Positions 35,012-39,608 of a stretch of DNA of 64,000 nucleotides are shown one piece after another. Source of the DNA: Utricularia gibba (lineage: Eukaryota > Streptophyta > Magnoliopsida > Lamiales > Lentibulariaceae); contig NEEC01000007.1 in NCBI GenBank assembly GCA_002189035.1, positions 2,790,001-2,854,000 of the forward strand. The letters run 5' to 3'. The position numbers and the translations under genes were made by a program. Position 1 is the first letter of the stretch. Each line of letters opens with the position of its first letter. The notes beneath the pieces are model-generated. The model was not told the DNA's origin. It ran no database searches and saw only the letters and a list, made by a program, of their open reading frames with translations.

Positions 35012-37907
35012 CTAACTGGACTGGAAGACGCCCTGAGTGTCACCCAGTTGCTGGAAATATGGATGGATGCGAGCAACTTCCTGGAGGTATAGCGGTGTCT
35101 GCATTTCAACCAACCTGGAAACCTGCACCACGCATCACAAGTTGACAGCCCACATTTTTGGATTCCTCCCATTGTCTGGTTTCTGGGATTTCGAGAAGGA
35201 AAGCAAACTCACCGCTCTCCGGAAGGCGAACATCTCCTCTTGACCGGAAAGCAGTGAAACGATCGTGGATGGTGCACCTCCGGAACTCACACTGCCTTGC
35301 GACAATACGTCGCGTCTCAGCTTCGTGTCCTCCGTTTCTGTTTCGAACTGGAAGCTGAAAGCATGAGAGGTTTAAGGTTAAATGCGGAGAGGCATCATTG
35401 ATCATCCATCATGGTGGACTTGCCTCTCAAGGTCAAACAGTGTTCCCTCTTCAGTTCCTTGAAATAGGTCATCGATGGAAGCCGCGGCGGAGCAAATCAG
35501 ACGGCAATGATGGTTGTACAGTTCATCTATAAGGGTGATGAATCTCCTCGCCTGAAACAATCCCAGTTCCTTTCTACTTAAAAGAGAAGCACTTGGATCA
35601 CAAGGCAGAAGAGAAGTGCTGTCCTGTTACCTTGTCCCTGATGCGCATGCTCATGACTGGAATGTCTGATATGAACACTGTGTGGAAGGCTTTAGCAATG
35701 GCAATATAATCAGCTGCACCAGTCTGTAAATTGTGGTATATGAATGCTTTCCTTGAACACAAATGCAACGAGAAAAAGCATACCGGCTGACCGCACAGAT
35801 ATTCAAATGTGAACCTTGCTATCCCGGCACAGCTCTGCTTGGCTTCTAATGTTCTGAAGAACATGCAGAAACCCCTTGTAAAGTGAGCGGTTTACTGTGA
35901 AAAAAAGATGGCATGCAGCTCTTACCTCCCGAACATCACTTCGAGAGACCGAGGAGCCACCATCCCACCTGCCTCTCTTGCAACCTTCTCCCACATGTTG
36001 TCGAATTCCATTGTTGTGTTCTGGTCTAGGGGCCAAAAATAATGAATCTGAAAGATACCCAGATACTTTATCAGCCATGGGGTTTGCAATGAAAACACTG
36101 GAATTGTGGTGTTGGTCCGGAAAAGCTTGCCTGATCAGTTGAACTTCCTGCTATAAGCCGACGGTAATCAATTTCATTTCCAATTAGGATATTGTCACAA
36201 TGCTGCTCCAATCTTGCCAAGAACTCCTGAAATATTTCCTTTTGCATCCCATCCTGGAGGACATGCAGAAGGATGTAGAAGAGGAAGGAGAAGTGAGTGC
36301 TTTGACAGAAAATGAGACAAGTTCGAAAAAGGATGCCTGGTTCAAGTCTGTTGGTGCACGGTTGCTGGTGGCCACAAGTACTGTCCCAGTATCCAGAAGT
36401 CTGCTTATGATCCCCGATAAAGCCACAACAGCAAAAACATCAACCGTCTGCAAAAGGGAGATCCAAGAATGACCATCTCTTGCAATTTGCTAAAACCGAG
36501 ATGATGATACTGATCTAAACCTGTATTTCATCAAAGCAGAGGATACTCGCCCCTTTTCTACGGCCTTGTCCATTGACAAGAAACTTATCAGCAACTGCTG
36601 GAAGGATGTTTTTCATGCTCATCTCTTGTTTGTATCTTTCTTCCTCAACTAACCATTCTTTGATCCTAGTGTCAAAAGGAAGGCTCATGACCCACTTCAG
36701 AATGTTAGATTGCGGGGAGGTTTCAGCTTCCTGACTCTTCCATACTTTATGCATCAGATCATGAATTTGAAGCATAGCCTAACCAAGTTAAATAAAGCTA
36801 GCACACTGAGTACATTTCCTGACATGATGAACAGCTTTTTCTCAAGCACTTGCCTCATGAAAGTGGAGCCTTCTCCGGTGTTGAACAATACCTTCCGTGG
36901 CTGCATAGAATATATCCATCAGCATCGTCTTCCCTGCATCCACAAAAAAGGAGATACTTTGTACATGACCTTATTCAATATCAAAGGAATTCCAGCAGCA
37001 AATTGTAGGATTGATGTTGCAGCAGACCACTTCCAACATGGCCATGAATATATAGTCCCCGGGGAGCTGGAGGTGCAATTGGACGCCTCCCAACAAGTGA
37101 ATCTAGTTTCCTTTCTCTGTTAAGATAGGACACCCATTTTCCGACACCGGGTTCGACAGTAACTGATTTTCTGCAGAATCCCAAAAAATGCAGTAACCAT
37201 AGGAGCAGAAACAAGCTCAAGAATCACTCATTGGTTAAGGCTCACCGTGCAGGCATCAATCTTCGGAAGAAGCTCAGCCGTTTCTTTGCATTTGCTAGTT
37301 CGCCTCCTTCATGTTTTGTCTGTGCTTCTTCCAACAGTAGTCTTCGTCGCTCTATTTCTCGAGCCTCTTCCCATTTAGCAAGGTTGACCTTCAGAACACA
37401 AACAGACAGATAACAGACGATGGAGCTTAAAGATAACAACGTTCATCCATTAGAAGTCCCTACATGGTATTGCTCCATATCCTCCTCATACTGTACCAGC
37501 CTCCCATGTAGATTATCCAATTCCAGAGCAATTTTCTCCTGATAAGAATCATGTTTCAACTTCCCTTGATCAATCAAGCATTTATAGTACCACAGCGGAC
37601 CTGGAAAACATTACAGAAAACAATTACTTCATGTTTCTATCAAGTGCAAAAACACAGATCCCCCAGAATTTCATAACAGAGGCCCAAAAAACAAGAACAC
37701 AATAATCGCCCATGGTAACAAATCCAAAAAATGATCACATTACAGAATGGTGAGTCAAGTACAAGCAGCGGATGAATTTACAAACCAACCTTGCCGCACG
37801 GAGAGAGTGGAATTTCGCCGATGATAGCAAAGCTGGAATTGGGCTGAGCCAAGTTCTTGGGTCCGGGTGATGAATCGTGAACACAGAAATGAATACAAAT
37901 TCCTCAT
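35012..37907 (-). CDS. AFG1-like mitochondrial AAA-type ATPase
   Basis: AFG1 (LACE1 in animals) is a mitochondrial inner-membrane ATPase that helps turnover of oxidative-phosphorylation subunits. Fourteen exons give about 592 residues with all junctions in phase. The N-terminus (MRNLYSFLCSRFITR) is basic and Ser-rich, as for a mitochondrial presequence. Then KWVSYLNRERKLDSLVG, Walker A GHVGSGKTMLMDIFY (about 180), FHEAMLQIHD, Walker B SILCFDEIQTVDVF (about 290), sensor-like VATSNRAPTDLNQ, HYFWPLDQ, FTFEYLCGQP, FISDIPVMSMRIRDKARRFITLIDELYN, DLESFQFETE and a C-terminal HPYFQQL. Order and motifs fit the plant AFG1-like family. Three introns, and probably a fourth, use GC donors: 36779-36853, 36048-36130, 35355-35423 and, less surely, 36254-36336. 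Start is the ATG at 37907. Head-to-head with the PPR gene. Confidence 0.94.
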
Positions 37908-38228
37908 TTTCTTTCGGAAAAATTACTCCCCAACCCAGTTACCGGCAAGATCAAAGCCGATTCTTCTTCAACGGATGAAATCACGACGAAGTTAGGTTCT
38001 GTAAGAAAAGGCGATCTTAGTCGTATGTTTAGCAACCTAATTGGAATTTTTTCGTACTTTGCCCCTGATCGACGTAGCCATGGAATTGGCCACCCAATTG
38101 GAATTTGAAACCGCACTATTCGTTACCTTGTCTAATGCGCTCCATTGATCAACTGGGTTCGGTTCTTCCTTTGGTTACAGTCGTTCTTGGGTCTGATTCT
38201 AACGACACGAAGGTGTGATCTTTATGGA
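37908..38228. promoter_or_regulatory. Shared promoter region of AFG1-like and PPR genes
   Basis: Only 321 bases separate the start codons of two divergent genes, both expected to act in organelles. Both promoters must fit here or overlap transcribed DNA. I see no clear TATA box for either direction. The PPR frame stays open upstream to 38145 but the first ATG in that frame is at 38229. Confidence 0.5.
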
Positions 38229-39608
38229 ATGTACAGAAAAGCAACGGCAGATCAGAGCTTCCTCACCCTCCTTCAGCTCTCCGACACTTTCTCCAAACTC
38301 ACGCAGGTCCAGGGGAAGATTATCAAGATGGGTTTCCAGAATAACCAGTTTATCCTCACTAAGTTCGTCTCTGCTTCCTCGGAACTGGACAACGTCCACT
38401 ACGGTTGTTCTTTCGTCTTCTCCAAAGATTCAAGGCCCCATCGTTATGACACGTTTCTGTACAACACTGTCATAAGAGCTTATGCTCAGACGACTCGTTT
38501 CAAGCTCAGGGCTATAAGGTATTACAACGAAATGCTCGTTCATGGAGTTGAACCCACCAGATACACATACCCTTTTGTTTTCATGGCGTGCTCCGGCATT
38601 GGGGAACTTAGTTTGAGCAAAAGCGTTCATGGTTCAGTAGTGAAGCTTGGATTTTGTGGGGATAGATACGTTCTGAACGTGATGCTTCATGTGTATTGCA
38701 GCTGTGAAGGAGGGATCACATCAGGGGAGAAGGTGTTCGATGAAATGCTGAAGACAGATTCAGTTCCTTGGAGCACAATGATGGGTGGATACCGTAATCT
38801 GGGGTTGTCAAATGAAGTCATCGAACTGTTCCGAAAAATGCAGATTGCCGGAGTGAGGCCCGATGAGATCACCATGGTGATGCTACTTTCTGCTTGCGCT
38901 GACTTGGGATCCCTGAAACTTGGAATCTGGGTGGAAAGCTATATCAAGAAGGAGAACCTGAAGATGAACTCGGCATTATGCAATGCTCTGATAGACATGT
39001 TCTCCAAGTGTGGCGATGTTGATAAAGCATTGATCTTGCTGCAGAGAATGCCGGCAAGTATGCGGAACATTGTATCCTGGACTAGTGTAATCTTCGGAAT
39101 GTCGCTATACGGCCGCGGAAATGAAGCGATCTCGCTATTTGAAGAGATGAAGCAATGGGGAGAATCTCCAGATGATGTGACGTTCATGGCTCTGCTGTCT
39201 GCGTGCAGCCATTCTGGTCTAGTTGAAGAAGGAAGACGATTTTTCAAGTCGATGGTGAATGAGTACAGAATTGAACCAAGAATAGAGCATTATGGATGCA
39301 TGGTAGATTTGCTGAGCAGGGCCGGACTTGTCAAGGAGGCGATCGAGTTCATCGACCGAATGCCGATGGCACCAAATCCGGTAATATGCCGGACATTGAT
39401 AGCTGCCTGCCATGAACAAGACGAACTCAGACTGATAAGTCAAGGAATGAATGAACATCTACTGAAAGAGGCAATGCAGCCGTCCAACTATGTTCTACTT
39501 TCCAATTTGTATGTAAAAATGGCGGAATGGGACAAGAAGAAGACCATCAGAGATGTAATGGAGAAGAAGGGGGCGAGAAAGATGCCTGGGCACACCATGG
39601 TCGAGTGA
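38229..39608 (+). CDS. PLS-class pentatricopeptide repeat protein, E type
   Basis: Intronless, 459 residues from the first in-frame ATG (MYRKATADQ); the open frame runs 28 codons further up without an ATG. PPR proteins bind organelle RNA one base per repeat, and E-type members usually take part in C-to-U editing. About ten PPR-like units are visible, for example LYNTVIRAYAQT, TYPFVFMACSGIGEL, VPWSTMMGGYRNLGL, ITMVMLLSACADLGSL, NALIDMFSKCGDVDKA, VSWTSVIFGMSLYGRG, VTFMALLSACSHSGLVEEG and YGCMVDLLSRAGLVKEA. The C-terminus (YVLLSNLYVKMAEWDK, RDVMEKKGARKMPGHTMVE) is the E/E+ region; there is no DYW domain. No strong targeting peptide is obvious at this start. Convergent with CESA, 340 bases between stops. 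Confidence 0.93.
   Translation: MYRKATADQSFLTLLQLSDTFSKLTQVQGKIIKMGFQNNQFILTKFVSASSELDNVHYGCSFVFSKDSRPHRYDTFLYNTVIRAYAQTTRFKLRAIRYYNEMLVHGVEPTRYTYPFVFMACSGIGELSLSKSVHGSVVKLGFCGDRYVLNVMLHVYCSCEGGITSGEKVFDEMLKTDSVPWSTMMGGYRNLGLSNEVIELFRKMQIAGVRPDEITMVMLLSACADLGSLKLGIWVESYIKKENLKMNSALCNALIDMFSKCGDVDKALILLQRMPASMRNIVSWTSVIFGMSLYGRGNEAISLFEEMKQWGESPDDVTFMALLSACSHSGLVEEGRRFFKSMVNEYRIEPRIEHYGCMVDLLSRAGLVKEAIEFIDRMPMAPNPVICRTLIAACHEQDELRLISQGMNEHLLKEAMQPSNYVLLSNLYVKMAEWDKKKTIRDVMEKKGARKMPGHTMVE

Follow-up and report, generated by a model that had tools for sequence, protein, structure and literature searches.

GC-AG Introns and the AFG1 Family

Introns that begin with GC and end with AG are a known minor class, and their mean share in plants is 1.488% (PMC7072748). 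The U2-type members of this class in plants have GC at +1/+2, an AG acceptor, AG before the donor, A at +3, and an otherwise near-consensus donor that offsets the base at +2; such compensation by stronger flanks is known for GC donors (PMC2490688). Homologous plant sites frequently switch between GT and GC (PMC7072748), and for mammals, one proposed explanation is that GC becomes fixed neutrally where the context is strong (PMC2490688). A regulated case is intron 10 of let-2 in C. elegans, where the C at +2 was found experimentally to be needed for developmental regulation (PMC2490688). In papers on Genlisea and Utricularia vulgaris, GC-AG introns go unmentioned.

The AFG1-like ATPase gene of Utricularia gibba considered here has all of the U2-type features listed above but differs in density, with 4 GC donors in 13 introns as against 2.3% in other genes sampled from the same genome and 1.488% plant-wide. 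The cluster is notable but ordinary, being made up of introns of a known class. The gene resembles let-2 in that GC donors lie beside exons whose inclusion could matter, whereas any such regulation in AFG1 would be hypothetical. A gene with three or four such introns is a useful test case both for the build-up of GC donors and for gene prediction and, were these donors conserved or regulated, would serve as a compact model of how GC donors function in plants.

With the AFG1/LACE1-ZapE family (PF03969), the gene shares the GHVGSGKT, CFDE, and VATSN motifs and a C-terminal GAADY/FHTVF block. An inserted stretch of about 45 residues ahead of FAFRRAVSRLVEMQTP has no counterpart in the bacterial members, and the gene differs from the LACE1-type paralogue at C1:8055757.

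An Intact Gene of 14 Exons

The window, which is the whole 64,000-nucleotide stretch of contig NEEC01000007.1 that was analysed, contains this gene on the minus strand at 37907-35012, with 14 exons, 13 introns, and 593 codons including the stop. Exons 1 to 14 lie at 37907-37790, 37600-37464, 37388-37246, 37170-37028, 36933-36854, 36778-36521, 36447-36337, 36253-36131, 36047-35926, 35853-35784, 35723-35631, 35551-35424, 35354-35213, and 35122-35012. Their join gives a single open frame, and the joined protein, which also aligns with a bacterial AFG1 profile, matches Pfam PF03969 (AFG1_ATPase) at 2e-69 with 234.7 bits (cut-off 27) over profile positions 46-337. Walker A (GHVGSGKT), Walker B (CFDE), and sensor 1 (VATSN) are intact; the 5' part of the Walker A region (GLYIHGHVGSG) is encoded at 37058-37028 on the minus strand, and the KT is added by the exon after intron 4. 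The pseudogene reading was dropped in view of the open frame and these intact motifs. A search of the PDB with the protein found no relative. Judged by its frame and motifs, the gene is an intact, complete nuclear AFG1-like ATPase of the mitochondrial type in a small-genome flowering plant.

The introns are 60-189 nt long. The acceptor is AG in all 13, and the donor is GT in nine and GC in four. The GC dinucleotides that the earlier note had placed in this gene are all present on the minus strand: at 36853-36852 (intron 5, GAG/GCAAGT), 36336-36335 (intron 7, CAG/GCATCC), 36130-36129 (intron 8, CAG/GCAAGC), and 35423-35422 (intron 12, GAG/GCAAGT). Intron 5 (36853-36779; 75 nt, phase 0) reads CATGAG/GCAAGTGC...TTGGTTAG/GCT and is GC-AG, as are intron 7 (36336-36254; 83 nt, phase 0), which reads AACCAG/GCATCCTT...TCCTCCAG/GAT, and intron 8 (36130-36048; 83 nt, phase 0), which reads GATCAG/GCAAGCTT...ATCTTTCAG/ATT. 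Intron 12 (35423-35355; 69 nt, phase 2), likely GC-AG, reads TGAGAG/GCAAGTCC...GCTTTCAG/CTT.

The Need for GC Donors

The need for these donors was examined with a spliced protein-to-DNA dynamic-programming aligner in which the +2 position of the donor is unscored, so that GA, GG, GC, and GT are equal. The matrix that scored the flanking bases was derived from this genome's own GT introns, and a profile of 36 bacterial AFG1/ZapE proteins served as the reference. With +2 free, the aligner picked GC at introns 5, 7, and 8, which agrees with the earlier claim that GC is required for the frame at introns 5 (after FHE) and 8 (after GSSTDQ). The alignment score was 677 when GT or GC was allowed and 569-588 when only GT was; the GT-only models thus cost about 90-108 half-bits as well as the protein around the junctions of introns 5, 7, and 8. 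These models were ruled out on the loss of core protein, and a search for a usable GT alternative at intron 5 gave none. A gene predictor confined to GT would lose or misplace the ATPase core exons. The free-donor run also produced some GA and GG junctions, mostly at the ends of the gene, where the bacterial proteins align badly, so only junctions well aligned on both sides were counted.

At intron 7, the earlier note had pointed to an in-frame GT that adds six residues. This option exists, but the doubt that it cast on the GC donor does not survive: PF03969 gives the GC model 234.7 bits and the GT model 223.1 (a difference of 11.6), and the donor context scores 10.6 at the GC site versus -8.0 at the GT, so the six-residue alternative was ruled out on both counts.

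At intron 12, GC is likely, with a donor context of 11.6, but it is not obligatory as had been claimed, since an in-frame GT at 35419, 4 bases downstream, had been missed. The bacterial profile cannot judge this intron because its stretch is absent from bacterial AFG1. A GT-AG intron at 35419-35348, which would leave three GC-AG introns in the gene, keeps the frame (DLERQ-FETE versus DLES-FQFETE); however, it has a donor context of only -2.9 and would pass over the acceptor region's first AG, and we regard it as unlikely. With the GC donor, the cDNA junction would read GAGAGCTTCCAG. On the alignments and donor contexts, at least three introns (5, 7, and 8) are read as GC-AG, and intron 12 probably is as well.

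GC Donors in the Rest of the Genome

The background was estimated in the same genome (100.09 Mb, 516 contigs) from 26 other gene loci, using E. coli proteins and fragments of a single plant-type cellulose synthase chain (PDB 8vhz_A) as references and removing poorly aligned loci. Six of nine Cpn60/TCP1-family loci, which aligned poorly to GroEL, were left out, as were two loci fetched as gyrase A (L038 and L039), which are probably of the eukaryotic topoisomerase II type. The sample, with a median intron length of 88 nt, contains 255 GT and 6 GC introns, and no locus has more than one GC donor. The GC rate is therefore 6/261 or 2.3% (95% interval 0.8-4.9%), a figure that carries some judgement because the GA and GG calls, mostly at places where the plant protein and its bacterial reference are of unequal length, were sorted out by inspection, the six GC donors being accepted after each non-GT call had been viewed individually.

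Against this background, the concentration in AFG1 is real and unusual, as the earlier note had held, at about 10-13 times the rate of its own genome. The Fisher p values are 5.6e-4 (4/13) and 0.006 (3/13), and the binomial values at the upper limit of the background are 0.003 (4/13) and 0.024 (3/13); these are not clean probabilities because the gene was chosen post hoc by a reader seeking oddities. At about 13 times the background, 4/13 could be put down to pure chance only with the excuse of multiple genes. A high genome-wide rate was rejected as the cause, about 2.3% being too low for 4/13, and so was a regional effect, with 0 GC donors in 6 well-aligned introns of the adjacent cellulose synthase gene.

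Donor Strength and the Origin of the Cluster

The four GC donors of AFG1 have flanking-context scores of 10.6-13.2 and the nine GT donors 0.6-10.3, so that the GC donors occupy ranks 1-4 among the 13 (exact probability 1/715). The 26 other loci show the same tendency, with a median context of 10.2 for GC and 6.3 for GT (Mann-Whitney p=0.001). The earlier note had supposed that GC donors are weak and thus open to a splicing switch; since the GC sites have the four best contexts, this premise of weak, competing sites fails in AFG1.

It is probable that the ordinary U2 spliceosome splices these introns constitutively and that drift from GT to GC was tolerated in strong contexts; in other words, we infer constitutive splicing and a neutral origin. 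A T-to-C change at +2 would cost one pair with U1 snRNA, and this loss would be tolerated because each donor otherwise comes close to consensus (with AG preceding it, A at +3, and mostly AAG following), which is why constitutive splicing is expected. Slow GT/GC turnover would then have happened to build up, or have been inherited, in one gene. The somewhat GC-rich introns perhaps helped: their GC content is 41%, compared to 34-40% in 18 sampled genes, and this might favour T-to-C changes, though as evidence it is weak. Such turnover, judged from aconitase paralogues, is visible within this genome. At one and the same 90-nt intron, the copies at C480:428500-434500 (L022) and C375:2156000-2162500 (L021) differ as GC versus GT, with CTTCAG/GTCCACAT in one and CTTCAG/GCACACAT in the other. 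The constitutive view has to face the report that alternatively spliced genes are enriched in GC donors (PMC2490688, PMC1769492).

The cluster may also have been inherited rather than built in this lineage, the donors being old and common to the AFG1 genes of many flowering plants. We consider this possible but doubtful. It is suggested by analogy with the GC-AG sites of Arabidopsis: of the homologous plant sequences, 9830 have GC-AG and 13045 have GT-AG, a GC share far beyond the expected 1.5% (PMC7072748). However, the sole other AFG1 gene found in the genome is of a different subtype, and its one probable GC donor, read by eye, appears elsewhere in the gene. Alternatively, selection could keep the GC donors for regulable splicing, such that skipping of exons 6-8 or intron retention would disable the ATPase. 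The lengths of exons 6, 7, and 8 (258, 111, and 123 nt) are each divisible by three, and the GC donors of introns 5, 7, and 8 border these exons; skipping them would preserve the frame at the cost of Walker B or sensor 1. Moreover, the alternative donors of rice and Arabidopsis are enriched in GC sites (PMC1769492). Symmetrical exons are nevertheless expected here because most introns are in phase 0, and the GC sites hold the strongest contexts of the gene. The GT dinucleotides within 45 bases of them are poor competitors with one exception, 38 bases upstream of intron 5, which is out of frame. Selection of this kind thus seems improbable, and a splicing switch arising from weak donors is neither supported nor favoured by the donor contexts.

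Intron 7 raises the further question of the minor spliceosome. The intron starts with GCATCCTTT, and its positions +3 to +9 (ATCCTTT) match the U12 donor (RTATCCTTT) exactly except at +2, which gives it a U12-donor score of 25.1, the highest of 225 introns (the next being 11.9), on approximate matrices and in a post hoc search; the genome also contains U12 and U6atac snRNA genes. It could therefore be a present or recent U12-type intron with a GC start, or a relic of conversion from U12 to U2. Against this, no U12 branch point resembling TTCCTTAAC was found near its 3' end (best score 1.0, rank 125 of 225, with no branch A), its pyrimidine tract is strong, as is typical of U2 introns, and U12 introns are almost never GC-AG (0% in Arabidopsis; PMC7367187), so that a U12 history has little to recommend it. 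Intron 7 is read here as U2-type, and the donor match may be coincidental or may reflect conversion from a minor intron. The bolder proposals, namely, selection for GC donors flanking exons 6-8 as a coordinated switch to a dead ATPase, or a functional GC-AG minor-class intron 7, appear very improbable. The reading that we prefer remains constitutive U2 splicing of donors that arose neutrally.

Other Sites and Neighbouring Genes

An apparent GC donor, GGGAG/GCAAGTTT, lies around base 2171 of the second AFG1 gene (L005), which is of the LACE1 type; it was read by eye, and the alignment to the bacterial profile did not choose it. A biotin carboxylase (accC) copy (L031, C375:2203500-2209500) has TACACAGGCATCC near the intron at reference position 325, and the other copy (L030) has ACACGCAG/GCATGC at the matching site. 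A GC junction in the former would shift the frame, so this copy may be in decay or may rely on a poor GT further downstream; because the site looks damaged, the copy was counted with its GT introns only.

In the window, genes for cellulose synthase, phospholipase D, and eIF4A were recognised from their open reading frames, along with a PPR gene whose long frame is unbroken; these neighbours mark the DNA as that of a flowering plant. AFG1 (minus strand) and the PPR gene (plus strand) are divergent and lie a few hundred bases apart, and the interval between them (37907-38230) is perhaps a shared promoter region.
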